In this document: piece by piece, positions 15,583 through 33,872 of the stretch
Layout of the letters: every line of letters begins with the position of its first letter
How positions within the stretch are numbered: position 1 is the stretch's first letter
Virus record (IMG/VR): IMGVR_UViG_3300020394_000578
Coordinates: 1-40,610 of that record
Source: a virus
Length of the DNA stretch: 40,610 nt
Strand: one strand, 5' to 3'
The notes under the pieces: model-generated
The model's database searches: none
Told to the model about the DNA's origin: nothing
What the model saw: only the letters and a program-made list of their open reading frames with translations
Program-made: the position numbers and the translations under genes

Positions 15583-15608
15583 TTGGCAAACTGTGGCAAT
15601 TCTTAGCA
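15583..15608 (-). promoter_or_regulatory. 10-bp-phased TGCC repeats upstream of promoter
   Basis: Read on the minus strand, TGCTAA (15608-15603), TGCCAC (15598-15593) and TGCCAA (15588-15583) are spaced exactly 10 bp. They end 6 bp before the -35 box at 15576. Sites on one face of the helix just upstream of -35 are typical of an activator array. The same arrangement recurs at seven other loci. Confidence 0.5.
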
Positions 15609-15663
15609 GATAGTTGACAAAAAAATCTCGCTATGTTACGCTCTAAGATAACACTTTGTCGTG

Positions 15664-15672
15664 CTATTTATG
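15664..15672 (-). promoter_or_regulatory. Late-promoter-like CATAAATAG
   Basis: The minus strand reads CATAAATAG, one mismatch from the T4 late consensus TATAAATA, about 140 bp before the 50-aa gene. With the sigma70 promoter at 15548 it would give the downstream structural block both early and late transcription. Confidence 0.45.
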
Positions 15673-15726
15673 GGGGTTTAAATAACACAAATGTATGTTT
15701 ATTTAACCATTTAAAATATACACTAG

Positions 15727-15779
15727 TTTCCACAAGTATGTCCGCTAATTGTGGAAAACTGTCTTGTAATTGTGGATAA
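15727..15779. other. Cluster of DnaA-box-like sites in AT-rich gap
   Basis: TGTGGATAA (15771-15779, complement TTATCCACA) is an exact DnaA box. TGTGGAAAA (15750-15758, complement TTTTCCACA) matches the form used in cyanobacteria as I recall it. A poorer match, TTTCCACAA, is at 15727-15735. An AT-rich stretch (15661-15725) adjoins. This could be a replication-initiation site or host DnaA titration; chance is possible. Confidence 0.35.
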
Positions 15780-15786
15780 TTGTTTA

Positions 15787-16149
15787 TCATCTAATGTATA
15801 AGTATCCTCCATTCCAATCACATTTAGAAAGGCATTCTTGGGCATTAATTAACAAATTAAACCTAGGAATAGGGGCAGGTTTATTCCAACTTGCTGCCTT
15901 AAATACATCCCCTGTTATTCTATCAACAAAGCAATGTACACTATTGTCAGTAATAACTTTCCAATACTTATTACCCTTCTTATATGATACATTGTAATCA
16001 CGATTATCCCATTTACGATGATAATCTTCTTTGATACATTTCATTAGTTTATTAACATTTTGCTCTATTACTTTGGCATCATAAGCAAAGTCTTTTCTTA
16101 CGTGATGCTCTTTGAATGCTGATACTTTGTCTTGATGATTTTGGGTCAT
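15787..16149 (-). CDS. Conserved phage protein, 120 aa
   Basis: A 120-aa protein whose C-terminal half (KYWKVITDNSVHCFVDRITG then DVFKAASWNKPAPIPRFNLL) matches a small-protein family common in tailed phages, in which a VHxFVD-TGDVYK-ASW core precedes P-A-x-x-x-R-x-N. The N-terminal half is helical and charged. Function is unknown. The ATG lies 5 bp after a CACTAATTAA element. Confidence 0.75.
   Translation of the reverse strand: MTQNHQDKVSAFKEHHVRKDFAYDAKVIEQNVNKLMKCIKEDYHRKWDNRDYNVSYKKGNKYWKVITDNSVHCFVDRITGDVFKAASWNKPAPIPRFNLLINAQECLSKCDWNGGYLYIR
15829..15844 (-). repeat. TGCC-type pair, 10-bp phase
   Basis: Minus-strand TGCCCA (15844-15839) and TGCCTT (15834-15829), 10 bp apart, near the 3' end of the 120-aa gene and 40 bp before its stop. 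A member of the phased repeat family (see 26867). Confidence 0.45.
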
Positions 16150-16170
16150 TTGTGTTAATTAGTGAATGAA

Positions 16171-16311
16171 TTAATAATCGTTAAGTATATTTACTTTTCT
16201 ACTTCTTGGGGGATTGTATACACTTTGTTTCTTTTGATTGTTAGTAACTGTGAGATAAATCTTTAGTAAAGTGTTACTATCTACTGTGCATGTTTGGGGA
16301 ATTGTTAACAT
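16171..16311 (-). CDS. Small hypothetical protein, 46 aa
   Basis: A 46-aa ORF from ATG 16311 (MLTIPQTCTVDSNTLLKIYL) to TAA 16171. It starts 1 bp after the preceding gene's stop and fills the gap to the 120-aa gene, which is the main support. It is basic in its second half (PPRSRKVNIL). Function unknown. Confidence 0.55.
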   Translation of the reverse strand: MLTIPQTCTVDSNTLLKIYLTVTNNQKKQSVYNPPRSRKVNILNDY

Positions 16312-16312
16312 T

Positions 16313-16552
16313 TTAGGGATTAATTGAGAAGTCATTTAATGATAGTGATCCAGCATGATTAACCTTATTAATTATACATGCGTGGTGAATATTTAACAAT
16401 TCAGATAGATTAACTCCCTCTAAATCTGTCCACTCTGATACATAATCAACTTGATCAAAATCACCTGTATTATCAACACATAAGGGGCATGATTTGAAAT
16501 CATTGTTATCATCTATCCAGAAAATACGTCCAAAAAAGTTAGATTTAAACAT
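16313..16552 (-). CDS. Hypothetical protein, 79 aa
   Basis: A 79-aa acidic protein (MFKSNFFGRIFWIDDNNDFK at the start) with a CPLC pair at residues 22-25 and a further Cys and His residues (NIHHACIIN). A small metal site is possible but not established. It begins 1 bp after the preceding gene and is followed 1 bp later by the next. No family recognised. Confidence 0.6.
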   Translation of the reverse strand: MFKSNFFGRIFWIDDNNDFKSCPLCVDNTGDFDQVDYVSEWTDLEGVNLSELLNIHHACIINKVNHAGSLSLNDFSINP

Positions 16553-16553
16553 G

Positions 16554-16769
16554 TTAATTTGCTCCTCTAAAGTTTAATTCTCTTACAGGATTGTCATCCT
16601 CTGTTGTTACATCATCAGGGAAATTAGTGTTAAGCATGTCCTGATACTCTCTAACTTGTGATGGTGATAAATCGTTTACAAATCCGTAAACTAACATATC
16701 AAGAATTCCATCATGCTTAGAAGCAATGTTATAAAGATCTGTTTGAAGTGTTTGTGAAGCGTTTGGCAT
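16554..16769 (-). CDS. Hypothetical protein, 71 aa
   Basis: A 71-aa acidic, mostly helical protein (TLQTDLYNIASKHDGILDML, then DLSPSQVREYQDMLNTNFPDD). It resembles small, acidic helical proteins of marine T4-like phages in composition only. No function assigned. Spacing to neighbours is 1 and 21 bp. Confidence 0.62.
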   Translation of the reverse strand: MPNASQTLQTDLYNIASKHDGILDMLVYGFVNDLSPSQVREYQDMLNTNFPDDVTTEDDNPVRELNFRGAN

Positions 16770-16790
16770 AATTACTGAGTTAATAAGAGT

Positions 16791-17045
16791 TTACTGAAGT
16801 GTGAAGTTAAATTGGTTAATTAAAATATCTCTTACTCTCTCTCTGTCTAGTGAATCACCACCGCCCCAAGTGTAAAAACTTCCTGCGGATGCTGTTTCTA
16901 ACTTTGCCTTATACACTTTAATTGCTGAATAGATTTCACCTTTTGTGACCATTCTGTTATCTTTAACTAAAGGATAAAGGACATCGTTAGGGCATCCATA
17001 AAATGAATAGATGTAATCAATGAAGTTTTTTAGGACTGGATTCAT
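16791..17045 (-). CDS. Hypothetical protein, 84 aa
   Basis: An 84-aa protein (MNPVLKNFIDYIYSFYGCPN) with mixed alpha/beta character, a basic centre (AIKVYKAKLETAS) and a glycine turn (YTWGGGDSLDRERVRDILI). Not recognised. It lies within the small-gene run with short intergenic gaps on both sides. Confidence 0.65.
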   Translation of the reverse strand: MNPVLKNFIDYIYSFYGCPNDVLYPLVKDNRMVTKGEIYSAIKVYKAKLETASAGSFYTWGGGDSLDRERVRDILINQFNFTLQ

Positions 17046-17081
17046 AAGATCTCCGTTTGTTTATATTAATATTATACATGA

Positions 17082-17375
17082 TTAATAACGCTCTGGTATC
17101 TTATCGTAGTCACTATTATTAGTGTCACAAAGGCGATTGACAATTTCATCTTCATTTCTATATGCTTTTAGTTTCTCTCTGATTAGTGCATAATGTTGAT
17201 AATATTGCCTTTCAAGTTTATCATCAATTAATTCAAAAATTGCATCCCAGTCGCTGTTTGTGAGTCTAGGTAATTTGTTTGTATTACTAACAATAACCTT
17301 TGCATCTAATTCACTACTAGTTGCGTGAGGATTTGCGTTTTGATGATAAACTGGACGTGGTTTTAATTGTGCCAT
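17082..17375 (-). CDS. Hypothetical protein, 97 aa
   Basis: I place the start at the internal ATG 17375 (MAQLKPRPVYHQNANPHATS), because CAGGAAAC 10-17 nt upstream gives a ribosome-binding site. The longer frame (to 17468) would overlap the previous gene and add low-complexity sequence. The C-terminal half is helical (SDWDAIFELIDDKLERQYYQ). Function unknown. Confidence 0.6.
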   Translation of the reverse strand: MAQLKPRPVYHQNANPHATSSELDAKVIVSNTNKLPRLTNSDWDAIFELIDDKLERQYYQHYALIREKLKAYRNEDEIVNRLCDTNNSDYDKIPERY

Positions 17376-17445
17376 TGTGTTAGTTTCCTGGAGATTTGTG
17401 TTTGTTAATGTTATGTAATCGGGTGTAATTATGACTTCCATACTA

Positions 17446-17634
17446 TTACTTAGCACACCCATATTCATCCAATTCCCTTACTTCATTAATATCCCATTCA
17501 CTTACCCATTCATCAATTACATCAAATTTATTGATATTTTCCTTTGCTAATTCTCTTGCTTCATTCTCATCACGTGCATCAACTTCAATGGTGAAGTAGT
17601 TAATCTCTGCACATTCAATTAAAAATGATTTCAT
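17446..17634 (-). CDS. Small hypothetical protein, 62 aa
   Basis: A 62-aa acidic protein (MKSFLIECAEINYFTIEVDA then RDENEARELAKENINKFDVI). The pattern of a beta strand, then DENEARELAKEN, resembles small alpha/beta phage proteins in which an AxDENEA helix follows two strands. The start at 17634 makes an ATGA overlap with the upstream stop, so I prefer it to the ATG 18 nt further upstream. Confidence 0.68.
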   Translation of the reverse strand: MKSFLIECAEINYFTIEVDARDENEARELAKENINKFDVIDEWVSEWDINEVRELDEYGCAK

Positions 17635-17819
17635 AATGCAACCTCGTAACATAGACCTTCAGCAATAAAATAGTCGCATAATTGTTGATACTGTTGCAAC
17701 TCATTGTATAAGTCACAATCTATCAAAAATTGTGCCATCTCTATTTGTAAATCAGGTGGTAGTAATCCACCATCGTAAGCATCTAATTGTAATGCTAATT
17801 TCTTTGGAATTGATGTCAT
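17631..17819 (-). CDS. Small hypothetical protein, 62 aa
   Basis: A 62-aa acidic helical protein (PPDLQIEMAQFLIDCDLYNE then LQQYQQLCDYFIAEGLCYEV). Similar short proteins (a helix around LIDxGLxxxLQ, then ADYFIxxGLC) are frequent in cyanophage genomes; function unknown. It starts directly after the upstream stop and overlaps the next gene by 4 nt. Confidence 0.68.
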   Translation of the reverse strand: MTSIPKKLALQLDAYDGGLLPPDLQIEMAQFLIDCDLYNELQQYQQLCDYFIAEGLCYEVAL

Positions 17820-18041
17820 TTAATCGTGAAGAGTAGGGATGAAAGTTTCTACATTATTGTTATTAATATTAATTTCAAAATCCTGTGTAGCGTCCCACAA
17901 TTCAATGTAATTGTGTAACCAATGACGTTGATCTTGTGTTAGTTTGTTATAATTTTGATAGAGCAAATCGTCAGCACTAATAAACTCAAATTGCTGTGAT
18001 TCACACCACTTTTCTAACAAGTCTGAAAGATGATCTAGCAT
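17820..18041 (-). CDS. Small conserved cyanophage-type protein, 73 aa
   Basis: A 73-aa acidic protein (MLDHLSDLLEKWCESQQFEF then LTQDQRHWLHNYIELWDATQ). The HLSDLLEKWCE...LTxxQRxWLxxYIxxWE pattern recurs in small proteins of marine T4-like phages. No biochemical function is known to me. It is the first gene after the hairpin at 18060. Confidence 0.7.
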   Translation of the reverse strand: MLDHLSDLLEKWCESQQFEFISADDLLYQNYNKLTQDQRHWLHNYIELWDATQDFEININNNNVETFIPTLHD

Positions 18042-18059
18042 GATTAAATGTTAGTAATT

Positions 18060-18080
18060 GTAGGGGAATTTCACCCCTAC
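18060..18080. terminator. GC-rich hairpin between small genes
   Basis: GTAGGGG-AATTTCA-CCCCTAC forms a perfect 7-bp stem with a 7-nt loop. It lies between the 33-aa and 73-aa genes. No U-run follows on the minus strand, so it may be an attenuator or RNA-processing/stability hairpin rather than a full intrinsic terminator. Confidence 0.5.
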
Positions 18081-18095
18081 TTGTTAGTTAATATC

Positions 18096-18197
18096 TTACT
18101 GATTAGCAAGATAATTGTCAATAATTGCGATCAATTCGTTACCAGTCTCTGCAAATGAGAGATCATTAAGTAAGAAAGTGACTGAGTTAACTGACAT
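18096..18197 (-). CDS. Small protein, 33 aa
   Basis: A 33-aa ORF from ATG 18197 (MSVNSVTFLLNDLSFAETGN) to TAA 18096. The ending ELIAIIDNYLANQ is an amphipathic helix. Support comes from its location 23 nt after a candidate structured leader RNA and before a hairpin, and from the lack of any other gene here. Function unknown. Confidence 0.55.
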   Translation of the reverse strand: MSVNSVTFLLNDLSFAETGNELIAIIDNYLANQ

Positions 18198-18219
18198 TGT
18201 TAATAAGCAAAGGGACAAA

Positions 18220-18306
18220 ATACTGGACTTACATTAATTGAGATTCAAATTAAAGAGCATTTTCCACTGGGGTCGCTCACTCTTGCCAATTAAATGCCAG
18301 TAAAAA
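18220..18306 (-). ncRNA. Candidate structured leader RNA (B)
   Basis: In the minus-strand transcript the ends pair as TACTGG/CCAGTA, then CATTTAATTG/CAATTAATG, with an unpaired TAAGT on the 3' side between the helices; an inner AAGAG/CTCTT helix is possible. It ends 23 nt before an ATG. It shares GGCAAG and GTAAGTCC, in the same order, with the element at 20355-20453. A riboswitch-like or protein-binding leader is an inference. Confidence 0.4.
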
Positions 18307-18323
18307 GTCAGGTGGGAAGAGGT

Positions 18324-18638
18324 TTAAACCGCTTCCATGCCTGACATAAATGGGACTGTGCCAACTTTGCTTGAGTTGTAATACCAAACATAATCCTTTT
18401 GAAAAACACTTCCATCAGGTGTTACATCACTTAGAAGTGCATTCAAACGTGATTTAGTAGTGACTGACTGCCAACCGCCATCCAAGATCTGCACAAATGT
18501 GTCACCAACTCTTGCGATAAGGTTGCCATGAAGTCTAACTTCAGCAATGCGGTCATTAATTGTGACTGAAGTGTTTGCTTTTGAGAAGTTGCGTCTTGTT
18601 AGGACTGCTGCATTCATTTCAGATTCAATTTTACGCAT
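18324..18638 (-). CDS. Conserved cyanophage-type protein, 104 aa
   Basis: A 104-aa basic protein. MRKIESEMNAAVLTRRNFSK and NLIARVGDTFVQILDGGWQS followed by VTTKSRLNALL match a small protein I recognise as widespread in marine T4-like phages (start MRKVE, core HGxLIA-DGGWxSxTTKSRLNA). Its function is unknown. It has its own promoter region (18692-18763) after the helicase, and its leader shares TTTTGTCCCTT with the region just after leader RNA B. Confidence 0.8.
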   Translation of the reverse strand: MRKIESEMNAAVLTRRNFSKANTSVTINDRIAEVRLHGNLIARVGDTFVQILDGGWQSVTTKSRLNALLSDVTPDGSVFQKDYVWYYNSSKVGTVPFMSGMEAV

Positions 18639-18691
18639 GTTTGAAAAATTAGTTAAGGGACAAAATCGGTTGCTTTGCTTCCGATATATTA

Positions 18692-18763
18692 ATTATAGCA
18701 GATCTCCGCACTCTGTCCGCAAGTAGTGGACACTTTCTCAACTGGTTGCGGACTGGTTGCGGA
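18692..18763 (-). promoter_or_regulatory. Promoter with four TCCGCA/TGCGGA hexamers
   Basis: The minus strand has TATAAT at 18697-18692 with TTGCGG 19 bp upstream as a possible -35. TCCGCA lies at 18705-18710 and 18716-18721 and its complement TGCGGA at 18747-18752 and 18758-18763. GTCCGCAA (18715-18722) and TTGCGGAC (18746-18753) form an 8-bp inverted repeat, and ACTGGTTGCGG is tandemly duplicated (18741-18762). This looks like an operator region for the 104-aa gene. Confidence 0.5.
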
Positions 18764-18773
18764 TTCATGCATT

Positions 18774-19994
18774 TTAACAATATGCTGTAGTGTGGTGACC
18801 TTCGGTGAAAATGTCATTGACTATTCTTTGAATTCTGTTAATAGTCTTTGTGCCATAATTCTTGTGAGTAGGAATAACGCAATGACCATAGGGTTTGCGA
18901 TACATATTAAGCACCCCACTAGGAATAACACTTTGCATAATGTTTTGTTTATCCTCTTTGTGTAACCTAATAACTCTACCGATAGTTTGCGACATCTCCA
19001 CGATGTTAAGATTTCGCAACAATAACGTATGAGATAATCCACTAACGTTGATACCTTCCGATAAAATAGAATAATGAAAGATAACAAATTTCTTTGCTGT
19101 GTCCTCTCCCCACTCTTTAAGAGTTTTAAAGAATTCCGTCCGATTGACTTTAGTCTTGTTAACATAAGCACCAAATTTACTTGTAATGTGTAATACGTCA
19201 TATCCCAATTTTTCAAGTTGAGATAGCAACTTAGTTTGTCCTAACATTTTATGCATACATTTAGATGATGGGACACTAATTAACACTTTCGCACCATCAT
19301 AGTCATTAATACTTTCAATGAAAGATTTAACTGTTAATGAGTGGTGAGCATGTGCATTATACTTTGAATAATGTAAATCAACTGGGAAACTTTCAATTTT
19401 TGGTGGAATAATAGATCCTCCATTTATCAAGTCTCTAGCATCAACATCCAGGAGAATTTCACCCCAAATGTTAACATTATTCATTCCCCTATCATGCTTA
19501 TATGATATTTTAGGTGTTGCTGTAAAATAATAACAACGTGATGCAATTTGACTACATGCACTAACACTAACAAAAAAACTTCTTGCTGTGCCGTTATGTG
19601 CTTCATCAAAATATATGGTATCAATATTAATACCACTATCAACAACTTTTGATAGAGAATGATAAGTAGTGAAGATAATTACGTTTGAATTGTTATCAAC
19701 GTAATCTGCAATTTCTTCTGGTTTAGTAGAACTATTAAACTTAGTCCTTCCACTATGTGCATGAAATACATTCAATTCTTCATCGATTGATGTAATAAAA
19801 TCATCACATAATTGCTGTGCTAATAGAATACGTGGTGCTACAATTACATTGACATTATTGTTAAGATTTGACTTCAAATCTTCGATCATAATGTATGTTT
19901 TTCCACCACCAGTAGGCACAATAATTTGACCTATATCATTCTGTTGCATAACATTTAGTGCTTCAGATTGATGTGGTCTTAGTGTAATGCTCAA
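18774..19994 (-). CDS. SF2 DEAH-box helicase (TTG start)
   Basis: A 406-aa superfamily 2 helicase/translocase. The start of the Q-like region is LRPHQSEALNVM; Walker A is PTGGGKT (residues about 27-33), motif II is DEAH, motif III TATP, and motif VI QTIGRVIRLHKED. The layout resembles T4 UvsW-type and restriction-subunit-type helicases but is shorter than T4 UvsW (about 500 aa), with no extra N-terminal domain visible. A likely role is DNA branch migration or replication fork processing. The start is TTG at 19994: an in-frame TAG lies 18 nt upstream, no ATG/GTG occurs between, and starting at the next ATG would remove the helicase's first conserved segment. Confidence 0.88.
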   Translation of the reverse strand: MSITLRPHQSEALNVMQQNDIGQIIVPTGGGKTYIMIEDLKSNLNNNVNVIVAPRILLAQQLCDDFITSIDEELNVFHAHSGRTKFNSSTKPEEIADYVDNNSNVIIFTTYHSLSKVVDSGINIDTIYFDEAHNGTARSFFVSVSACSQIASRCYYFTATPKISYKHDRGMNNVNIWGEILLDVDARDLINGGSIIPPKIESFPVDLHYSKYNAHAHHSLTVKSFIESINDYDGAKVLISVPSSKCMHKMLGQTKLLSQLEKLGYDVLHITSKFGAYVNKTKVNRTEFFKTLKEWGEDTAKKFVIFHYSILSEGINVSGLSHTLLLRNLNIVEMSQTIGRVIRLHKEDKQNIMQSVIPSGVLNMYRKPYGHCVIPTHKNYGTKTINRIQRIVNDIFTEGHHTTAYC

Positions 19995-20014
19995 GTGTGA
20001 TGTTTGTAACTATT

Positions 20015-20020
20015 ATTATA
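20015..20020 (-). promoter_or_regulatory. -10 box for helicase gene
   Basis: TATAAT on the minus strand, 20 bp before the helicase TTG start and just after the terminator at 20027-20050. No good -35 is seen, so an activator-dependent (middle-type) promoter is possible. Confidence 0.5.
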
Positions 20021-20026
20021 ATACAT

Positions 20027-20050
20027 GAAAAAGCACCCCAATGGGGTGCT
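20027..20050 (-). terminator. Intrinsic terminator
   Basis: On the minus strand AGCACCCC-ATT-GGGGTGCT is a perfect 8-bp stem with a 3-nt loop followed by TTTTT. It sits 23 bp after the stop of the 86-aa gene and before the helicase promoter, so it ends that transcript. Confidence 0.9.
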
Positions 20051-20073
20051 GAGTGGACACTATGTCAACTGGT

Positions 20074-20334
20074 TTACTTGGCAAACTCTTGCTGATAAAC
20101 CTTAACAACATAGTTAGAGACTTTATCGTAAGACCATTTAATGTCATTTACGAGTGCATTTATCTCGTAAGTGTGAATGCTCCATCTGATTTTAATGTCA
20201 TTAATATAATCAGTGGATTTGAGTAGAGTTGTTGGTCTTACATTTGTCTCAACTGTCTTAACTTGCTTTACTGGTGCTTTACGAGTCCTTCTCTTACGTG
20301 TAGTAGCAGAAGTGGTCTTTTTAGCAACTGGCAT
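20074..20334 (-). CDS. Basic N-terminal-tail protein, 86 aa
   Basis: An 86-aa protein with a very basic, Thr/Lys/Arg-rich N-terminal tail (residues 1-30, KKTTSATTRKRRTRKAPVKQ) like a histone tail, then a compact helical region (INALVNDIKWSYDKVSNYVV). This suggests a DNA- or RNA-binding role; no family recognised. It is a single-gene unit: promoter and structured leader upstream, intrinsic terminator downstream. Confidence 0.72.
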   Translation of the reverse strand: MPVAKKTTSATTRKRRTRKAPVKQVKTVETNVRPTTLLKSTDYINDIKIRWSIHTYEINALVNDIKWSYDKVSNYVVKVYQQEFAK

Positions 20335-20354
20335 AAGTTGAGTAGTTTAATGTA

Positions 20355-20453
20355 AATGGGTGAGCGAAAGAATCTGGGGACTTACAGGACGTAATTTCTC
20401 AACTGAATTGAGACAACCATAGATCCTTGCCTGATTGCTTTCGCATACCCATT
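20355..20453 (-). ncRNA. Candidate structured leader RNA (A)
   Basis: The 16-nt arms at 20355-20370 (AATGGGTGAGCGAAAG) and 20438-20453 pair with two mismatches. Inside the minus-strand transcript are AATC/GATT, AGGA/TCCT and the hairpin CTCAA-TTCAG-TTGAG, with GTAAGT left unpaired. The element begins at the -10 box and ends 20 nt before the ATG of the 86-aa gene, so it occupies its whole 5' leader. GGCAAG and GTAAGTCC recur in element B at 18220. Confidence 0.45.
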
Positions 20454-20480
20454 ATAAGCATTAATGGGCAAAGGTGGGCA
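20451..20480 (-). promoter_or_regulatory. Promoter with 10-bp-phased TGCCCA repeats
   Basis: On the minus strand TGCCCA (20480-20475), TGCCCA (20470-20465) and TGCTTA (20460-20455) are spaced exactly 10 bp; the last unit runs into TATAAT (20456-20451). The first unit lies where a -35 would be, but does not match TTGACA. This suggests activator-dependent transcription of leader RNA A and the 86-aa gene. Confidence 0.55.
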
Positions 20481-20517
20481 TAGTATAGGCAAATCGTTAC
20501 AAACTGTAATACTATGC
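20478..20517 (-). terminator. Hairpin overlapping the stop of the 131-aa gene
   Basis: GCATAGTAT (20478-20486) and ATACTATGC (20509-20517) are a perfect 9-bp inverted repeat, with a smaller inner TTAC/GTAA stem. It spans the TAG stop at 20512. No U-tract follows, so termination would be factor-dependent, or the hairpin may protect the 3' end. Confidence 0.45.
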
Positions 20518-20907
20518 TTGATTCATCTCCACTTGCTTATCCAATATTAATTGTGTCACATCCTCATTAATATATGTTTCAATGTATTCTTTACATGATG
20601 CAACAGTAGGGAATGCTGCGATTCTCTCGTATGTCCATAATATATTTTCCTGGAATACCATAGGATTTAATACTTTATCTGTTACTGATATGAATTGTTT
20701 CATACCTTCAGTATTACCTAATTGGCATCCAATACGAGCATTTACACGATATTCTTCATCAGTCTCATCACTATAATATGTGTTATCAACTATAGTAAAT
20801 GCTGCTAATTGTTTATCATTAACTACAATATTATCGTCAGTAATATATACTGACTCATAATATTTTAATTCATCGTTATCCCTAATTGCATTTGTTATTT
20901 GTTTCAT
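20512..20907 (-). CDS. Hypothetical protein, 131 aa
   Basis: A 131-aa acidic protein (MKQITNAIRDNDELKYYESV), likely alpha/beta: strands in the first half (VNDKQLAAFTIVDNTYYSDE) and helices in the second (CKEYIETYINEDVTQLILDK). No family recognised. It is the last gene of a packed small-gene operon, overlapping the upstream gene by 4 nt (ATGA). Confidence 0.7.
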   Translation of the reverse strand: MKQITNAIRDNDELKYYESVYITDDNIVVNDKQLAAFTIVDNTYYSDETDEEYRVNARIGCQLGNTEGMKQFISVTDKVLNPMVFQENILWTYERIAAFPTVASCKEYIETYINEDVTQLILDKQVEMNQA

Positions 20908-21119
20908 TCTTGCAACTCATCTAAACGATATTGATTGTATGCATTTTCCACCTTATCTAACAATGGAATTACATCAACTAAATTATCAATTTGTGCCAAC
21001 ATATCTGCAATATGCTTTGATACATAAGGTTTTTCAGTCCTTGCACTAAATGATAATGCTTCTCTTAAATGCTCCTGTGATGCTCTTAAACTTTCTTCTA
21101 CTTGTTTACTTAGTGCCAT
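20904..21119 (-). CDS. Small helical protein, 71 aa
   Basis: A 71-aa all-helical protein (MALSKQVEESLRASQEHLRE then HIADMLAQIDNLVDVIPLLD), amphipathic and coiled-coil-like. Function unknown. It starts 2 nt after the preceding stop and ends in an ATGA overlap with the next gene. Confidence 0.7.
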   Translation of the reverse strand: MALSKQVEESLRASQEHLREALSFSARTEKPYVSKHIADMLAQIDNLVDVIPLLDKVENAYNQYRLDELQE

Positions 21120-21121
21120 AA

Positions 21122-21289
21122 TTAATAACCATTAATGTAATCTGCTAGTGCATCGATGTATTCATCGTATGTAGCATATTTATGCTTAAATTGATCGGGG
21201 ACTTCCATAACTCTGATCGGTTTATAACACTCCCTAGTAGAGTATCCCTTCTCATTAGCATATCTTGTAATATAATTGTCCATTTGCAT
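21122..21289 (-). CDS. Small hypothetical protein, 55 aa
   Basis: A 55-aa ORF from ATG 21289 (MQMDNYITRYANEKGYSTRE) to TAA 21122, with an AGGAGG ribosome-binding site about 13 nt upstream. The ATG overlaps the upstream stop by 1 nt (TAATG). The C-terminus YDEYIDALADYINGY is a helix. Function unknown. Confidence 0.65.
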   Translation of the reverse strand: MQMDNYITRYANEKGYSTRECYKPIRVMEVPDQFKHKYATYDEYIDALADYINGY

Positions 21290-21438: not shown

Positions 21439-21442
21439 AAAA

Positions 21443-21750: not shown

Positions 21751-21771
21751 AATGCTCCTTTGTTTATAATA

Positions 21772-23905: not shown

Positions 23906-24053
23906 TAATTTCTTTCAACTCTTCAGTAGCATTTATCCTCTCAGATATTGACTGATTGAGTTGATCTGCATCCATTTCTAAATTAGCATACTTTGCAGTT
24001 AATTCTTGCAATTTGCGTAATGCTCTTGCTGCTTCTGTTCCTTGATCACTCAT
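23862..24053 (-). CDS. Coiled-coil protein, 63 aa
   Basis: A 63-aa, almost fully helical protein with heptad-like spacing (ARALRKLQELTAKYANLEMD then ADQLNQSISERINATEELKE) and a basic tail (KKDRERR). It overlaps its upstream neighbour by 4 nt (ATGA). Probably a small oligomer; function unknown. Confidence 0.68.
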   Translation of the reverse strand: MSDQGTEAARALRKLQELTAKYANLEMDADQLNQSISERINATEELKEIIAKATQAKKDRERR

Positions 24054-24316
24054 AATTTATAATCAACAAACTCTTTATTTGTGATGTTATTTGTTAACAA
24101 TTCTTGGGCATTTTTGAGCAATTCTGCCTTATTAGTGTGATGATTTAAACTATCACTTAGTGCTGTCCGAATACAATTAACAAACTCACCTGGTGTGAGA
24201 ATTTCACTCTCAACATATTCTACTACTGCATCACGAATGTGATGCACACATGCATTTATATCTTGTTTATGCATTGCTGCTGGATGCTCTGTCTCTGTTA
24301 CATTTATGTTAGTCAA
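24050..24316 (-). CDS. Hypothetical helical protein, 88 aa
   Basis: An 88-aa helical protein (DINACVHHIRDAVVEYVESE then FVNCIRTALSDSLNHHTNKA). No family recognised. Within it (24105-24120) lie two TGCC-type repeats 10 bp apart, not in codon phase with each other. Overlaps are 8 nt upstream and 4 nt downstream. Confidence 0.68.
   Translation of the reverse strand: MTNINVTETEHPAAMHKQDINACVHHIRDAVVEYVESEILTPGEFVNCIRTALSDSLNHHTNKAELLKNAQELLTNNITNKEFVDYKL
24105..24120 (-). repeat. TGCC-type pair, 10-bp phase
   Basis: Minus-strand TGCTCA (24120-24115) and TGCCCA (24110-24105), 10 bp apart, about 50 bp before the ATG at 24053. A member of the phased repeat family (see 26867). Confidence 0.45.
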
Positions 24317-24512: not shown

Positions 24513-25341
24513 CTAGTCTAGTTAATAGGTTGTCTTGTAATGGTTTGACTCTATCTACACACATTTTATGGTATGCTTCATCGATCTCAAAACCAATGAA
24601 ATTTCTGAGCATTTCTAGGCAAACTTGGGCAGTTGTACCACTACCCATGAAAGGATCTAAAACTAGATCACCTTCGTTACTCCATGTATGTATGTGACCA
24701 CGTGCTAATTCTTCTGGCATTGTAGCAGGATGTTTGTATGCACTCTTACTTGATTGCCCAAACCCTCCACTATTCTTAATCCTCCAGATATTAGTCCTCA
24801 CACCCCACTCTTTAATCTCTTTACTCTTCTTACCAGGATCATTTATAGATCCATCCTTCTTCCTAGTCTGTGCATTGCCCCATGACTGGTGACCTGCCCA
24901 CTTATTCTTTTTATCACATAATAAATTAACTGTCTTTGGTTTACCCTTAGATAATATAAAACAATACTCAAACTGTTGAGTATATCTTACTGAGTTAACA
25001 CCACTAGCAAATGCTGTGCCTGTCTTCTCATATATCATTGTATCATGTAACCTTAAACCAATGTCCATGAAATGTAATGCTTGTCTGAATGATGATCCAG
25101 ACTCACTCCCTTTAATGGTAGCATCATTTACATTCCACATAATAACACCACCAGGTTTCAGCACCCTATTTAATTGTGCTGCAACTGAATAGAATACATT
25201 CATATCCCATTTACTGCTGTCATTATATGTGCGTAGATCATCGTACGGTGGAGAAGTGACAACGAGATCAATAGTCTCATCATCTAACTTCTCCATACCT
25301 GCAATACAATTTAATTTGTATGTTTTATTAATGTCTAGCAT
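24505..25341 (-). CDS. DNA methyltransferase, SPPY type, 278 aa
   Basis: A 278-aa amino-methyltransferase of the N4-cytosine/N6-adenine class. The catalytic motif IV TSPPYDD is at residues 29-35 and the AdoMet-binding motif I DPFMGSGTT at 229-237. The catalytic motif preceding the AdoMet motif is the beta arrangement. The target-recognition region lies between (about 100-210). The upstream gene, encoding a PD-(D/E)XK-like protein, overlaps it by 7 nt. It could protect phage DNA from host restriction or form part of an R-M system. The SPPY motif does not decide between N4C and N6A. Confidence 0.9.
   Translation of the reverse strand: MLDINKTYKLNCIAGMEKLDDETIDLVVTSPPYDDLRTYNDSSKWDMNVFYSVAAQLNRVLKPGGVIMWNVNDATIKGSESGSSFRQALHFMDIGLRLHDTMIYEKTGTAFASGVNSVRYTQQFEYCFILSKGKPKTVNLLCDKKNKWAGHQSWGNAQTRKKDGSINDPGKKSKEIKEWGVRTNIWRIKNSGGFGQSSKSAYKHPATMPEELARGHIHTWSNEGDLVLDPFMGSGTTAQVCLEMLRNFIGFEIDEAYHKMCVDRVKPLQDNLLTRLDA
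24606..24631 (-). repeat. TGCC-type triplet, 10-bp phase
   Basis: Minus-strand TGCCCA (24631-24626), TGCCTA (24621-24616) and TGCTCA (24611-24606), each 10 bp apart, in the 3' part of the 278-aa methyltransferase gene, about 95 bp before the ATG at 24512. A member of the phased repeat family (see 26867). Confidence 0.5.
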
Positions 25342-25983: not shown

Positions 25984-26934
25984 TCAATCTGAGTCATCTG
26001 TGTCAGCAACACCACCACTTCCTAAACTGGCATATAGTCCTAGTCTCTTGTTAATTAAATTACCATAGTCCTCGTGCAACTCACATCCCAAATAAAATCT
26101 ACCCAACTCTTTAGATACCATTGCTGTAGTTCCTGATCCCATAAATGGATCTAGAATAACATCACCTCTCTTACTACCTGCTTTAATGCATGGTACTATA
26201 AGATCTCTAGGGAATGTAGCAAAATGTGATCCCTTGTAAGGTTTATTTGTTACTGACCAGACAGATCGTTTATTCTTTGTTGGATATGATTTCTCAAGAC
26301 CTGAATGTGGTGCCAACCCTGTCCCTTTGTTATGATATTTCCCTTTGGATCTATCTCTGGTACCCCAGTCTTGTGCTGGTTCTTTGATTGCTTCATTATC
26401 GTAATAATAGTTTTTACTTTTAGATAATAAAAAGATATACTCATGTGATTTAGTACATCTATCCTTCACACTCTCAGGCATTGGGTTAGGTTTATGCCAA
26501 ATAATATCTTGACGTAAGTACCAACCATCATTGCGTAGTGCAAATGCTAACATCCAAGGGATGCCAATCAAATCTTTTGATTTTAAATTCTTAAACTTAT
26601 TACCCCTGACTGGTGTCTTATCAGGTAGATCTTGTTTAGTCTTACTTACTGATTGTTTAGGATAATTACCATCGCTACGATAATTATAATAACTATCACC
26701 AATATTTAACCATAGGGTACCATCATCCTTCAATACATCACGTACCAATCTAAATGTGTTGACTAACTCTTGTACATAGTCCTCTGGTGTTTGCTCTAAT
26801 CCAATTTGTTGATCCTCTCCACCATAGTCTCTTAGACCATAATAAGGTGGGGATGTAACACACATTTGGGCACTTTTGGGCAGAAATGCACCTAGTGTCT
26901 TTCTGCAATCTCCATATAATATGGTATCCTTCAT
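25984..26934 (-). CDS. DNA methyltransferase, SPPY type, 316 aa
   Basis: A 316-aa methyltransferase related in layout to the 278-aa one. Motif IV TSPPYYG is at residues 27-33, the helix GTLWLNIGDSYY follows, and the AdoMet motif DPFMGSGTT lies at 262-270. The sequence between (about 80-230, IIWHKPNPMPESVKDRC then KNYYYDNEAIKEP) is typical of restriction-type DNA methylases. It is separated from the nuclease-like gene by 31 bp. A tandem TGCCCA repeat (26867-26882) lies in its 5' end. Two methylases may modify two strands of an asymmetric site or two different sites. Confidence 0.9.
   Translation of the reverse strand: MKDTILYGDCRKTLGAFLPKSAQMCVTSPPYYGLRDYGGEDQQIGLEQTPEDYVQELVNTFRLVRDVLKDDGTLWLNIGDSYYNYRSDGNYPKQSVSKTKQDLPDKTPVRGNKFKNLKSKDLIGIPWMLAFALRNDGWYLRQDIIWHKPNPMPESVKDRCTKSHEYIFLLSKSKNYYYDNEAIKEPAQDWGTRDRSKGKYHNKGTGLAPHSGLEKSYPTKNKRSVWSVTNKPYKGSHFATFPRDLIVPCIKAGSKRGDVILDPFMGSGTTAMVSKELGRFYLGCELHEDYGNLINKRLGLYASLGSGGVADTDDSD
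26867..26882 (-). repeat. TGCCCA tandem pair, 10-bp phase
   Basis: Two TGCCCA units (minus strand 26882-26877 and 26872-26867), exactly 10 bp apart, in the start region of the 316-aa methyltransferase gene. Equivalent pairs or triplets occur at 15583, 15829, 20455, 24105, 24606, 28756 and 32918, always in this orientation. Confidence 0.6.
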
Positions 26935-28325: not shown

Positions 28326-29035
28326 GTCAATAGAATGTCCTTGATTGTTTTGGAATCGAAACCAATCACTCCCATGTCCATTGGTGGTGCCTTACCTTCC
28401 CTGTTGTCCTTCTCTGCTTGAGAGAATAATCCTTGTCTTTGCTCTGGTTCCATATATTTGAATGACATAATATATCTATTTACTGGATACCTATTAGTTG
28501 GTGGTCTCCCTGTGTGTGGTACCCGACCATCAAATAATACTATCCTACCAGGTTTAGGTGATATTATTCTTTGAGCATTTAACTCATGATCATAGAATAT
28601 AGTTTCACCACCAAAATTAGGATGATCTAAATCTGGATTCAAATATAATAATACTGTCTTATTATCCTCCACCCAGTACGGTGCATCAACATGCACACCT
28701 GGTGTATCACCTGCCTTTAAACAATTAATATATGCACTATACAACCAGTCTCTTGGGGGCATTTCTGGGCAAACTGCTTCCAAATATGTGAGACATTCTA
28801 AGTATAGTGGATCATTACTTGCATCTAATCCTGTGTTATCAAAGTAACCAGGATCATCTATTGGTACAAAATTATATAATTGATGTGTCCAATAATTATT
28901 ACGAATATCTACCTCTGGTCTATCTGGACATGGTGGGTCATCAGTCCTCGTACACATGTAAGGTAGAAACATCACCTTATCAAATAGTTCTTGTGATGCT
29001 AAGTTAGTATCAAATACTTTAATGGGATAATTCAT
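28322..29035 (-). CDS. 2OG-Fe(II) oxygenase, 237 aa
   Basis: A prolyl-hydroxylase-type oxygenase. H115-V-D117 (PGVHVDAPYW), H174 (GRVPHTGRPP) and R182/R187 (NRYPVNRYIMSF) form the iron/2OG site, with the GGETIFYDH strand between. I use ATG 29035: the longer frame (to 29158) runs through the JmjC gene and adds a hydrophobic, non-family sequence. The overlap with the JmjC gene is then 17 nt. It contains a phased TGCC pair (28756-28771). Confidence 0.86.
   Translation of the reverse strand: MNYPIKVFDTNLASQELFDKVMFLPYMCTRTDDPPCPDRPEVDIRNNYWTHQLYNFVPIDDPGYFDNTGLDASNDPLYLECLTYLEAVCPEMPPRDWLYSAYINCLKAGDTPGVHVDAPYWVEDNKTVLLYLNPDLDHPNFGGETIFYDHELNAQRIISPKPGRIVLFDGRVPHTGRPPTNRYPVNRYIMSFKYMEPEQRQGLFSQAEKDNREGKAPPMDMGVIGFDSKTIKDILLT
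28756..28771 (-). repeat. TGCC-type pair, 10-bp phase
   Basis: Minus-strand TGCCCA (28771-28766) and TGCCCC (28761-28756), spaced 10 bp, inside the oxygenase gene and out of codon phase with each other. A member of the repeat family described under 26867. Confidence 0.5.
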
Positions 29036-29798
29036 ACCAAGTTCTATCAATAGGTTTAAGGTGTGGTAACATATGCTGCATAGGTATGCTAACAGACAAC
29101 CTCTTACCATCTGGTTGTGCTTGATGATAACAACGTGCAGGTATGTATAGCATATCACCTGGTTTTAATATGTGATCTATAACACACTCCATACCAGCAA
29201 CATTCTCTGCTTGTTCATTACTATCAATATCCATTGTTGAATAAGCATCTAGTGTGGTAGCATCAAAATCAAATTCCTCTTTTAATTGTGGTTGTTTCTT
29301 TACTAGATTACTACATCTATTCTTATATACTTTCCAATGTGTCTCTCCTTCTATCTGCATAATAAAATTATTTGCTGTGTCTTCATGCACTCTGAATGAA
29401 TTACATCTCTTTAGACCAGCATAGATATGAAATGATGTCTTACCATCAAAATATTTCTCAAACTCTCCTATTAATGCTTGCTTCTTAGGAAATCCTTGGT
29501 CAAAATTATTAATAATTAAATTATGTCCCTCCTCCCATGCTCTCATTAAATCTGATACCTCTGCACATGGTGATGACCAACAACGTTCATACTGTTTAAT
29601 ATCAAGAAACTGTATGATCTCTCTATTAATAAATGTAATAGAATAAAATTGTGGATTGTTTAAACAGTATTCAATATCATCCCACGTTGCAAATAATGGC
29701 AGTAGATCTTTATCCACAATACCTTCCCATAGATGTGGTTCATCATCTATAACCCATCTTTTACTGGAATGTAATTTAGTTAGAAGCGAAGATATCAT
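29019..29798 (-). CDS. JmjC/cupin-type oxygenase, 259 aa
   Basis: A 259-aa protein with a C-terminal JmjC-like domain. The iron site is H138-E-D140 (SFRVHEDTANNFIMQIEG) and H225 (LYIPARCYHQAQPDGKRLS), with the EGETHWKVY strand typical of ROXA/MINA-like ribosomal-oxygenase cupins. Those enzymes hydroxylate Arg or His side chains in proteins, so a protein substrate is plausible. The N-terminal 100 residues are helical and unassigned. It overlaps the 221-aa oxygenase gene by 23 nt and the next by 17 nt. Confidence 0.85.
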   Translation of the reverse strand: MISSLLTKLHSSKRWVIDDEPHLWEGIVDKDLLPLFATWDDIEYCLNNPQFYSITFINREIIQFLDIKQYERCWSSPCAEVSDLMRAWEEGHNLIINNFDQGFPKKQALIGEFEKYFDGKTSFHIYAGLKRCNSFRVHEDTANNFIMQIEGETHWKVYKNRCSNLVKKQPQLKEEFDFDATTLDAYSTMDIDSNEQAENVAGMECVIDHILKPGDMLYIPARCYHQAQPDGKRLSVSIPMQHMLPHLKPIDRTWYELSH

Positions 29799-30441
29799 GG
29801 TCGCATTTAAAATTAATATTTAATGTTACACGGTACTTATGTTCACCGTATGGATTGCTTGATGCATGGAATTGATGTCCATCAAATACAAATAAACTAT
29901 TTGCTTCAGGTGTTACCCTCTTCTGAATAGTATATTCTTGTGACCTTGCTTTATACCACCTCTGATCCACAGTACCAAATTTAGGATCATCATACTGATC
30001 AAAGAATGTAGTATCACCATTACTATCATGAAGATAGTATAGTGCTGCATAATGATCTTCCTCATGGTCTGTATGTGGTGCATTATGATGTCCATTCTTA
30101 CCTATATCTGTTATCAATGCTAATCTTAACCTAAAAAATTCTACAGGATGACCTATAGAATCTTGAATAGCATCTGTTAGTGGTAAAAAATAGGGTAACC
30201 AAGGACTCTCTACCCCACCCTGATCTAATAAAAGATGTACAAATCCAATGGATTGCTCTTTCTCAGGTATATTATGTCTTAGTTCCTCACCACCAAACTT
30301 ACAGTCAGTTGCATCATCATATGATATATCCTCTGATATAAAATACCAGGGAAATCCATTCATGCCATTAACTATTTTATTTAAGCGAGAGAGGTACGAC
30401 TTTCCTATTATATCTTTTTTGTGGATATACTTCATCTTCAC
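29776..30441 (-). CDS. 2OG-Fe(II) oxygenase, 221 aa
   Basis: A 221-aa prolyl-4-hydroxylase-like enzyme with H123-T-D125 (NAPHTDHEEDHY), the strand YAALYYLHDSNGDTTFFDQ, H192 (VFDGHQFHASSNP) and R204 (HKYRVTLNINF). The complete triad makes catalysis likely. It starts 65 nt inside the upstream oxygenase gene. A later start would be near residue 27, but the earlier helix fits the family. Substrate unknown. Confidence 0.86.
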   Translation of the reverse strand: MKMKYIHKKDIIGKSYLSRLNKIVNGMNGFPWYFISEDISYDDATDCKFGGEELRHNIPEKEQSIGFVHLLLDQGGVESPWLPYFLPLTDAIQDSIGHPVEFFRLRLALITDIGKNGHHNAPHTDHEEDHYAALYYLHDSNGDTTFFDQYDDPKFGTVDQRWYKARSQEYTIQKRVTPEANSLFVFDGHQFHASSNPYGEHKYRVTLNINFKCDHDIFASN

Positions 30442-31063
30442 GATAATAATCAGAGAATATATGCATATTGAATGAGAGTGAGATTCTCTCTAGTTCAGTA
30501 TTACTCTTGTCTACACTGTGCATCAACCATGATGGAAATATCACCATAGTACCAGGTTTTGGTTGAACATACCATTCAGTGAAGTTATGTTGTTTCTCGT
30601 ATCTATCAAAATTCTCATCACATCCCCAATATTCTTTGAGACATTGCTCATGTAATGGTCTGTGGAATTTTAATTCACCGCTACAACAATTTGGTACTTG
30701 TGCATAATATACACCAGCAAACATAGATCCAGAATGCGTATGTATTGCATTACTATGACCTTTAGTATTAATATTAGACCAGAGATTAATTAACTTAATA
30801 GTATAATCATTAAACCCATACTCATCACCAGCAGTATATGTATTTAATTCTATCTGCTTATGTAATTCTTTGAGTGGTGTCTTATCAATATATGGTGGTG
30901 TAAAATTATTAGATTGCCATCCTCCTTCATTAGATTTCTTCATCCCTACTGGATCTTCATCCCTTACCTTATGTACGAAATCAACTATGACATCGTTATC
31001 AATGGGGCAGTCTTCAAAGATCCAGATCGGTGTTGGAAATAATAACTCAGTCGTTAGATGCAT
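30377..31063 (-). CDS. 2OG-Fe(II) oxygenase-like protein, 228 aa
   Basis: A 228-aa protein of the same family as those at 27472 and 38282: an N-terminal LFPTPIWIFED, then WSNINTKGHSNAIHTHSGSM, AGVYYAQVPNCCSGELKFHR, and MVIFPSWLMHSVDKSNTELE. The iron-binding residues align as H108-T-H110 (HxH rather than HxD) and H182, with R193 (ERISLSF). The Cys pair after AQVPN is unusual. It overlaps the upstream 126-aa gene by 17 nt. Confidence 0.83.
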   Translation of the reverse strand: MHLTTELLFPTPIWIFEDCPIDNDVIVDFVHKVRDEDPVGMKKSNEGGWQSNNFTPPYIDKTPLKELHKQIELNTYTAGDEYGFNDYTIKLINLWSNINTKGHSNAIHTHSGSMFAGVYYAQVPNCCSGELKFHRPLHEQCLKEYWGCDENFDRYEKQHNFTEWYVQPKPGTMVIFPSWLMHSVDKSNTELERISLSFNMHIFSDYYREDEVYPQKRYNRKVVPLSLK

Positions 31064-31427
31064 CCTCTACTACCTCTTCAACTTCAGTTTCTTCATCACT
31101 ATTGAATACGAAATCACGTGTGGTCACATTAGGATCAACGTGCTTCTTATATAATGCTAGTGCCTCCACCGCACCACTTAATTTATTAAGTGTATCTTTC
31201 TTAGTCTGCAAATCTTCTAGTGAGATCTTAGTGATCGTACTAGTGTAGTGCATGTTGTCAAGTGCTTCCTGTAGTTTATGATATTCTTTCTTAGTATCTT
31301 CATACTGTTGTAGAAAGTTCATAACCAAATCATCAAAGGTAATAAGACCTTCAATCTCTTTAGGTTCAACTTTATCTGTTAAACCTGCTTCCTCGGCAAG
31401 ATTAACTTCTCTTACGTCTTCTGGCAT
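31047..31427 (-). CDS. Acidic coiled-coil protein, 126 aa
   Basis: A 126-aa acidic protein with a long central helix (residues about 30-95, FLQQYEDTKKEYHKLQEALD then LEDLQTKKDTLNKLSGAVEA) and a disordered acidic tail (SDEETEVEEVVEDASND). It resembles small scaffold or chaperone-like phage proteins only in composition. It lies between an oxygenase and the DUF6065-like gene. Function unknown. Confidence 0.68.
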   Translation of the reverse strand: MPEDVREVNLAEEAGLTDKVEPKEIEGLITFDDLVMNFLQQYEDTKKEYHKLQEALDNMHYTSTITKISLEDLQTKKDTLNKLSGAVEALALYKKHVDPNVTTRDFVFNSDEETEVEEVVEDASND

Positions 31428-32311
31428 TACTCAAACCTCTCTTTGTTTTTATTTAGGGAAAGAATTAACTTTTGTTTGTCGATGCGTCCTTTCAATGTAG
31501 TCATCTCAGGGAAACTCATGTACCTATGATAGTCCATGATTTCATTATTCTTGAGATCCTCTTCATTAGCATCTTCTACGATAACATCAAACTCATCATT
31601 ATGCAACCATTGTCTTGGAATAGGAATCCATTGACATAATGGGGTACCTGCCTTAACAAGATACTCACCAGGTTCAACAGCATGCCAAAACATTTGTAGA
31701 TTGACCTCATATGAATAAGATGGATCAACGATCCCTGTTGGTACGCTGAATCTATCTTCATCATAATATGGTACTGGTATCTGTAAGAATACCACATCCT
31801 TATGTGCTTGTACTCTCCAAGGTAGTTCTAATTTAACTACCATTTCATTAGTTTCTTTCTGCTGATTAACTAAGTGTGACATACCCTCAGTTTGCTCAGG
31901 TGCATGTGCTTTAACAAATGATTTACCACCTGCTTCAAACAATACCTGTGATATCCAGGAGAAATTCTTTTTCTCACCATCTTGTGATATAACAAAATCT
32001 GCTGGACATTGTAGTACCCAACCACTCTCAAATAATTGATGTAGTGCTGGACATGTTGCTGCATGTTGGAATAAACCATCATAGTCAGCATCACCAACAC
32101 CATAGTTGAGTAGATTAGTGTGATGTTTAAATAGTTTCTTGACCTTCATTACTGGACAAGCACTATCCTTACCATAATATTTCTTAAGTGCTTCAGTTAC
32201 CCACTTCCTCTTTACTTTCTTAGCAGGTATCCAAGGTTGCAATGCAGACACACCCTTTTGTACTGAGTAGAATCTTACCCACTTCCTTTTCTTTTTAAAC
32301 GGATTCCACAT
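31427..32311 (-). CDS. DUF6065-like protein, 294 aa
   Basis: A 294-aa protein with a basic N-terminus (MWNPFKKKRKWVRFYS). The core reads CPALHQLFESGWVLQCPADF, then LPWRVQAHKDVVFLQIPVPY, DEDRFSVPTGIVDPSYSYEV and KAGTPLCQWIPIPRQW. The order W-R-x-x-A-x-x, then P-x-x-x-x-x-x-R-F-x-x-x-x-G-I-V-D, then G-T-P-L-x-Q-x-x-P is the signature I recall for DUF6065. No function is known for that family. Its place between halogenase and oxygenase genes suggests it belongs to the same pathway. Confidence 0.65.
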   Translation of the reverse strand: MWNPFKKKRKWVRFYSVQKGVSALQPWIPAKKVKRKWVTEALKKYYGKDSACPVMKVKKLFKHHTNLLNYGVGDADYDGLFQHAATCPALHQLFESGWVLQCPADFVISQDGEKKNFSWISQVLFEAGGKSFVKAHAPEQTEGMSHLVNQQKETNEMVVKLELPWRVQAHKDVVFLQIPVPYYDEDRFSVPTGIVDPSYSYEVNLQMFWHAVEPGEYLVKAGTPLCQWIPIPRQWLHNDEFDVIVEDANEEDLKNNEIMDYHRYMSFPEMTTLKGRIDKQKLILSLNKNKERFE

Positions 32312-33872
32312 AGATATTATCCTTTAGATATTGATAATGTGATGGCAATTTATCGACCCATTCTAACATAGATTTCTTACTTTCGCAATAATCAATATCA
32401 TATTGTACGACATCATTCCATCGTTGTTCATCTGCTAAGTCATTAAATATAGTCTCAGTAAATGGTCTAATCCCCATGCCTGTAGCAATATAAATTGTAC
32501 CCTCACCTATCATATTGGGATCAAATGCTTTCTTATCGAGGTAATCAATAAATGCTCTGTAATCCTGCAATGCGTGTAGTGATGCTTCAGTAGAATCACC
32601 TGGTTTACCTAAGAACTCTACATTATTAGTAGCATCCTTCCAATACTTAGTGTCTTCTCTGATACTGAGAGTATAATGTAGAGTCACGAAATTCTTCATG
32701 CTCTCCAATAATTTCTCTGCACTATAATTATATATTGACCTGTCGTGATTTGTCACGTGTCTGTCACGAGTAGCAAGCACATCACTAAACTTTAATAGAT
32801 TCTCATGTGTAGTTAATAGTCCTGTTGATTCTAATGGTTCTAAGAATCCATATGATAAACCAATACCTATAACATTCTTAACCCATGCCTTCTCATGTTT
32901 ACCATGCTTAATTTTTATGGGCATTAATGGGCATTCTTGGTCATCTAGATACTCTCTAAATTCTATTTCTGCTTGCTCATCAGAGATATATTTACTGGAG
33001 TAAACATATCCTGTACCCATATTATTCCACATAGGAATATTATATACCCAACCATTACCAAGTGCAGTGCATTTGGTATAACAGTTCATCTGCGTATCTT
33101 TATCAGTATAATCAATATGTGTTGCCAATGCTCTATCATTGAACAACATATCTTTGAATGGTATAAACTTCACACCCATGTGCTGCTCTAATAACAGTGA
33201 TCTAAATCCTGTGCAGTCAATAAACAAATCAGCACTAATTGCTTGACCATCCTCTGTAGTAACAGCAGATATATCACCATTAATAGTTTTAATTACATTG
33301 TTTACATCACCATAGACATGATGTACGCCATTAGGTACAGCAATATTATCTCTTAGATACTCACCAAACTTATCAGCATTCAAATGATACGATAGATCAT
33401 CATTTGGTAGATACTGATTGCAGTCAGGTATCTCCATTGTCATCTTACCTGCATCAGCAACATAAGTTAGTTTGTTTACAAATCTAGCAAACTCTTCTGG
33501 TGGATATTTGTCCTTACCATATACACATTGCAACTCAAAGAATTTCTGTATGTGTGTAGCAATATGATCTGATGGTGGTCCAAATGCACCAAATGGATAT
33601 TGAAACTTTGTACCTTTTGCTCTGAAATTTTCAAATGCAATGGATGCTTTGTATGTAGCATTACATTGCTTCATCCAGTCTTCATCCTTAAGTCCTAACC
33701 TCTTAAGATACCTATTGAACCATGCCAATGTTGACTCACCCACACCAATAGGTTTGACGTTAGGTGATTCAATTAAACACATTTCAATATTTGGATGCTC
33801 CTTAGATAATAATGCTGCTGTCATCCATCCACTACTACCACCACCTACAATACAAATAGATTCAACTTGCAT
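32295..33872 (-). CDS. Tryptophan-halogenase-family flavoprotein, 525 aa
   Basis: A 525-aa flavin-dependent halogenase-like protein. The FAD-binding motif GGGSSG is at residues 10-15, and GVGEST (43-48) is typical of the family. Lys75 in ATYKAS corresponds to the catalytic Lys79 of PrnA. WVYNIP (275-280) is a slightly altered form of the WxWxIP halogenase signature, and FLEPLESTG (343-351) carries the catalytic Glu. Such enzymes use FADH2, O2 and halide to make Lys-bound hypohalous acid; here the substrate is unknown. It overlaps the second halogenase gene by 11 nt and the DUF6065-like gene by 17 nt. A reductase partner is not encoded here. Confidence 0.88.
   Translation of the reverse strand: MQVESICIVGGGSSGWMTAALLSKEHPNIEMCLIESPNVKPIGVGESTLAWFNRYLKRLGLKDEDWMKQCNATYKASIAFENFRAKGTKFQYPFGAFGPPSDHIATHIQKFFELQCVYGKDKYPPEEFARFVNKLTYVADAGKMTMEIPDCNQYLPNDDLSYHLNADKFGEYLRDNIAVPNGVHHVYGDVNNVIKTINGDISAVTTEDGQAISADLFIDCTGFRSLLLEQHMGVKFIPFKDMLFNDRALATHIDYTDKDTQMNCYTKCTALGNGWVYNIPMWNNMGTGYVYSSKYISDEQAEIEFREYLDDQECPLMPIKIKHGKHEKAWVKNVIGIGLSYGFLEPLESTGLLTTHENLLKFSDVLATRDRHVTNHDRSIYNYSAEKLLESMKNFVTLHYTLSIREDTKYWKDATNNVEFLGKPGDSTEASLHALQDYRAFIDYLDKKAFDPNMIGEGTIYIATGMGIRPFTETIFNDLADEQRWNDVVQYDIDYCESKKSMLEWVDKLPSHYQYLKDNIYVESV
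32918..32933 (-). repeat. TGCCCA tandem pair, 10-bp phase
   Basis: Two exact TGCCCA units (minus strand 32933-32928 and 32923-32918) in the halogenase gene, out of codon phase with each other. The same family as at 26867; the distance to the next gene start makes a promoter role uncertain. Confidence 0.55.

Follow-up and report, generated by a model that had tools for sequence, protein, structure and literature searches.

Gene content of the window and its relatives

The window, i.e. the whole 40.6-kb stretch analysed here (G000, virus record IMGVR_UViG_3300020394_000578), covers part of a genome only. Its genes include those for a T4-type baseplate wedge, a UvsW-like helicase, tryptophan halogenases, 2OG-Fe(II) oxygenases and DNA methylases, and the closest annotated phages at the DNA level are Prochlorococcus myoviruses. 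All its long genes lie on the minus strand, which we call the sense strand. Contig G001 is collinear with the window at 93-94% DNA identity, and G002, G003 and L006 at about 70-90%. Two tryptophan-halogenase-like genes, with strong PF04820 and phrog_2928 matches, stand side by side in this cyanophage at 32295-35319. Three other genes, neighbours of one another (35803-36627, 36624-37433 and 37434-38243), are alike in DNA, with 68-75% cross-matches with the relatives' copies, and the first of them matches a glycine-rich domain. G001 also has a part (about 1-40000) without collinearity to the window, and there six sense-strand loci carry AGTGG repeated every 7 bp (p = 3e-9).

Non-random TGCCCA units every ten bases

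Eight minus-strand loci had been described at which units close to TGCCCA follow one another every ten bases; all are present in the sequence, with the correction that the first unit at 24105-24120 reads TGCTCA. That no pair occurs in the opposite orientation proved only approximately right: the plus strand carries one, at 8954-8967 (TGCCATTTTATGCC), but its units match TGCCCA poorly. The structural region below 15 kb is indeed free of arrays, with 0 TGCCCA pairs at up to two mismatches in total.

Several independent counts bear on how unusual these arrays are. Dinucleotide shuffles predict 0.09 copies of TGCC-N6-TGCC, whereas the window has seven on its minus strand and one on its plus strand. 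When a TGCCCA pair in the early region may carry up to two mismatches altogether, a spacing of 10 gives 12 sense pairs and 1 antisense pair and other spacings give 0-3, so that 10 stands far above 8, 9, 11 and 12. An unbiased scan covered every 4-mer at spacings of up to 40, with multiples of 3 excluded, and TGCC at 10 bp came out on top (p = 7e-10, with the runner-up at 5e-3), as it also did in G001, G002 and G003. The best pairs of 33 40-kb windows from other T4-like cyanophages reached p values of 5e-5 to 6e-3, and a further test segment, from a different part of G001, gave 2e-7 with another word. The six genic loci span all three frames. Coding repeats are not the cause, as originally argued, since shuffling of synonymous codons fails to reproduce the count: five coding pairs were observed, about 0.7 are expected once the two fixed non-coding pairs are subtracted from the shuffled total of 2.7, and 0 of 500 shuffles attained the observed number. 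Leave-one-out scoring with a periodic matrix ranked every locus between 2 and 17 among about 40,000 window positions. Three exact TGCC units at ten-base spacing are found nowhere in the window; weaker units extend some arrays in register (TGACCA at 32943, TGTTAA at 15854 and TGCTTA at 20460). A chance origin is ruled out by the unbiased scan, the codon shuffles and the 33 comparison windows: the TGCCCA runs every ten bases are real, strongly non-random and lineage-specific.

Distribution in the clade and strand bias

Contigs G027-G033, newly fetched and excluded from the motif definition, hold 26 sense and 2 antisense TGCC-N6-TGCC pairs, several of these contigs being near-copies of each other. 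TGCC at 10 bp topped the unbiased scan in G027, G032 and G033, and in G027 (199 kb) four of the five exact pairs fall within 16 kb. Once ten clade contigs were mapped to the window, about 15 sense versus 2 antisense independent early-region positions could be counted (sign test, about 0.001), and outside promoters the bias persisted, at about 13 to 2. Within the clade, arrays are kept at orthologous places, as the original prediction would have it. In more distant T4-like cyanophages they occur at chance level, which rejects a general motif of these phages. Four Prochlorococcus genomes contain 4 TGCCC-N5-TGCCC sites in 6.2 Mb, versus 4 in the 40-kb window; the Prochlorococcus sites are few and lie inside genes, so that a host regulon, assuming Prochlorococcus to be the host, is unlikely, and any factor reading the arrays would probably be phage-specific.

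Two promoters with upstream arrays

The arrays near 15548 and 20451 had been assigned to promoters, and both promoters are recognisable, but the eight loci include six that are genic. At 15548-15576 (minus strand) there is a canonical sigma-70 promoter, TTGACA-N17-TATAAT, with 6/6 matches in both hexamers and a 17-bp spacer, conserved in about 25 homologues. The units upstream of it, TGCTAA-N4-TGCCAC-N4-TGCCAA (15583-15608, minus strand), are another matter: the third is not conserved and the first two are found only in the closest homologues, for which reason we consider this locus to be probably an ordinary promoter.

The promoter at 20451-20486 (minus strand) is a composite element, ATACTA-TGCCCA-CCTT-TGCCCA-TTAA-TGCT-TATAAT, conserved in six distinct versions. 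TGCT abuts the TATAAT -10 hexamer (20456-20451), and the two TGCCCA units (20480-20475 and 20470-20465) begin 24 and 14 bases before it; these units of the array initially placed at 20455-20480 flank the -35 position. No sigma-70 -35 hexamer is recognisable at 15-19 bp, where the best match is 3/6. The versions share the form ATACTA-TGCCCA-N4-TGCCCA-N4-TGCTTATAAT. Counting by eye over ATACTA, both TGCCCA units and TGCTTATAAT, 27 of 28 columns are invariant across the six versions, versus 0 of the 8 spacer columns (CCTT/TTAA, TTAA/TCTA, TTCT/TTAG, CTTT/TTAG with TGACCA, TTCT/CATG and AACT/CTTG). The more distant versions were fetched through homologues of the neighbouring gene with the array intact and then by scanning IMG/VR. 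An exact IMG/VR scan for one unit plus TGCTTATAAT returned 19 matches, eight of which, all from this locus, have a second TGCCCA (0-1 mismatch) exactly ten bases upstream; none of the 19 has an equally good second unit at any other spacing. G002 and G003 have other sequence in place of the array. A DNA-level function of this array is well supported by the comparison of versions. ATACTA also precedes the array at a start-codon site in G027 and G030, and TATACT in this context could itself be a -10. Elsewhere, the TGCCCA units lie at no fixed distance from -10-like sites, so that a fixed geometry common to all arrays was rejected.

Directly after this promoter begins a predicted structured leader RNA (20345-20452, minus strand; fold z-score -5.1), whose ends are kept and whose middle is variable in G001, G002, G003 and L006. 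Neither a tRNA nor an Rfam RNA was detected near the 20455 array, and the leader family itself had 0 matches in Rfam. Members of this family directly follow TATAAT promoters in many cyanophage contigs (L086, L087, L101-L128 and P-SSM5, HQ632825 31267-31427). Their outer stem, GAAAACAAACGAGG/CCTCMGTTTTGTTTTC, is GCGAAAG/CTTTCGC in the window and GCGAAAC/GTTTCGC or GGGAAAC/GTTTCTC in relatives, so that pairs change on both sides; the inner stems look nested, with seemingly interchangeable modules. The module at 20378-20435 is 98% identical to that of P-SSM5, though the outer stem differs. Four other members fold slightly better than shuffled sequences or no better. In L101-L128, a conserved dyad, TGTGCCA-GTTGAnGAAG-TGGCACA, lies about 50-75 bases upstream of TGGGAAAACAAACGAGG; its arms change together, as seen in the variant TGTGACA...TGTCACA, and a dyad-like sequence precedes the 20451-type promoter in L382, L384 and L255.

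Arrays inside genes and before start codons

The genic arrays, all on the minus strand, differ in how well they are kept. TGTTAA-N4-TGCCCA-N4-TGCCTT (15829-15854, in the ORF 15787-16149) is kept in G001, partly in L006, and lost in G002 and G003, and TGCCCA-N4-TGCCCA inside the second DNA methylase gene (26867-26882) is likewise kept in G001 and lost in G002 and G003. The pair TGCTCA-N4-TGCCCA (24105-24120), intragenic and 52-67 bases upstream of the ATG at 24053, retains its units with changed spacers in G001, G002 and G003. The triple TGCCCA-N4-TGCCTA-N4-TGCTCA at the 3' end of a DNA methylase gene (24606-24631) has unchanged units in G001, G002, G003 and G032, and TGCCCA-N4-TGCCCC inside a 2OG-Fe(II) oxygenase gene (28756-28771) occupies the same place in eight clade contigs. 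Inside a tryptophan-halogenase-like gene, TGACCA-N4-TGCCCA-N4-TGCCCA (32918-32943) recurs with few unit changes in G001, G002, G003, G027, G030 and G033 (one change each in G002 and G003). A weak ninth locus, TGACCA-N4-TGCCTATAAT, lies in the second halogenase gene (34648-34667) and is also present in G001, G002 and G003.

At 24606, 24105 and 28756, units are kept in both G002 and G003 and changes fall mostly in the spacers. For five of seven coding arrays, units are kept in these two contigs better than at most same-frame places of the same gene; the combined preference is weak (about p = 0.04, Fisher combination of percentiles), and extra synonymous conservation at the coding arrays is unexceptional, so we claim no strong constraint there. 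In relatives, arrays also stand directly before start codons, namely of homologues of gene 15163 (G002, G003, G027, L284, L285, L290 and others), with no -10 in between (G003, TTGCCCCTAATTGCCATG; G027, TGCCCCGCATTGCCCTTTTTTGCTATG), and, in G033, of a homologue of gene 24050.

A proposed directional cis-regulatory element and its alternatives

The arrays had been proposed to bind a transcription activator or a cooperative DNA-binding protein. A sequence-specific factor is well supported at 20451-20486, where six versions combine fixed units with free spacers. However, the 15583 array, next to its canonical sigma-70 promoter, is not conserved. Most arrays lie in genes or precede start codons without a following -10, and away from promoters they retain a sense bias for which a plain DNA operator would have no need. 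No activator was found. With most arrays in such places, a simple promoter-activator reading explains only part of them, and their start-codon positions and sense bias keep a reading at the level of RNA or elongation alive. Our preferred interpretation, to which we give a probability of roughly 0.5, sees in the arrays a cis-regulatory element that belongs to the early region, is specific to this clade of T4-like cyanophages and is directional with respect to strand. Its TGCCCA-like units, two or three in number and spaced by one helical turn, would be read by a putative factor, probably phage-encoded or brought in through a modified host polymerase. At 20451-20486, judging from conservation and geometry, this factor may recruit sigma-70 or, since there is no usable -35, stand in for the -35 contact, thereby activating the promoter. 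At intragenic and start-codon arrays we infer that the same factor might target either the polymerase during elongation or the transcript; indeed, everywhere but at 20451-20486 the reading may be of either DNA or RNA. That the arrays form a directional code of the clade's own, in which a phage factor with a MotA-like role would read TGCCCA units at promoters, start codons and genes alike, is a rather doubtful extension.

A somewhat unlikely alternative is that the transcript is read instead of the DNA: the ribosome, or an RNA-binding protein of phage or host that has repeated domains, would recognise UGCCC every ten nucleotides in early mRNAs and thereby control translation or stability. The sense bias of about 13 to 2 outside promoters would fit this, as would the relatives' arrays right before start codons, many of them at gene 15163 homologues and with no intervening -10. 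Against it, the 20451 array sits upstream of the -10, and therefore outside the transcript that would start there, at a fixed spacing in six versions.

It appears improbable that function is confined to the 20451 promoter element and that the other arrays arose by coincidence from protein sequence and codon choice and were then inherited. Such coincidences would suit three observations: the coding arrays barely exceed their genes in conservation, two (26867 and 15829) are lost in G002/G003, and two rest on the peptide pattern C-P-x-M-P, in which the cysteine requires no more than TGC. However, codon shuffles never attain the observed count, the sense bias is strong across clade positions, and in G032, where none of the mapped arrays falls at the 20451 position, TGCC at 10 bp heads the scan (1e-7) and there are array positions peculiar to this contig.

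No known DNA-binding family stands out among the window proteins as reader of the arrays. A regulator of known type, either the 65-aa protein encoded at 14184-14381 (minus strand), whose fold may be AbrB/MazE-like, or a response regulator of the host that uses tandem 10-11 bp half-sites, is highly improbable: AbrB sites (TGGNA-N5-TGGNA) have a 10-bp period too (PMC11497800), the units read TGGGCA on the opposite strand and the protein is 89-100% identical in G001, G002, G003 and L006, but TGGGCA differs from TGGNA, the host genomes lack sites, and the protein is acidic, has homologues in phages without arrays (including P-SSM7), matches PF04014 below the curated cut-off (E = 9.5e-4) and yields a model without significant PDB match (SpoVT and MazE among the Foldseek matches, E 0.5 or worse). 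With family and fold evidence too weak and the wrong core, we rejected this weak candidate as the binder.

Returning to the directional cis-regulatory element, the invariant units and free spacers at 20451 offer a concrete DNA target for fishing out the missing factor, and the sense bias outside promoters makes it conceivable that a directional element acts in elongation or on mRNA. To our knowledge, MotA and AsiA, the proteins of T4 middle promoters, are absent from marine T4-like cyanophages, which bears on how these phages switch on genes between the early and late phases.

Comparison with known systems

Promoters activated by lambda CII carry TTGC-N6-TTGC, and the window element resembles them in having tandem TGC-containing half-sites 10 bp apart that replace a good -35. 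However, the half-site at 20451 is TGCCCA rather than TTGC, with the invariant units preceded by A, T or G, the second half-site lies about 2 bp nearer the -10, and the cyanophage arrays, from a T4-like phage, also occur in genes and before start codons. In T4 middle promoters, MotA uses one TGCTT box near -30. The 20451 promoter similarly has a phage-specific upstream box that replaces the -35 and keeps a TATAAT -10, but it has tandem 10-bp units instead of a single box. Neither a CII-like nor a MotA-type family was found among the proteins scanned in the window, itself part of a genome.

Among bacterial operators, the bipartite Bacillus sites of AbrB, with the pseudo-consensus TGGNA-N5-TGGNA (PMC11497800, PMC11135676), share the 10-bp period of the cyanophage arrays but differ in their core, the reverse complement of the window unit being TGGGCA. 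The cyanobacterial Pho box, CTTA-N7-CTTA, which has been searched for and reported in cyanophage genomes (PMC3037559), likewise consists of tandem direct repeats, but its period is 11 bp, whereas the arrays described here have a period of 10 and the core TGCCCA.
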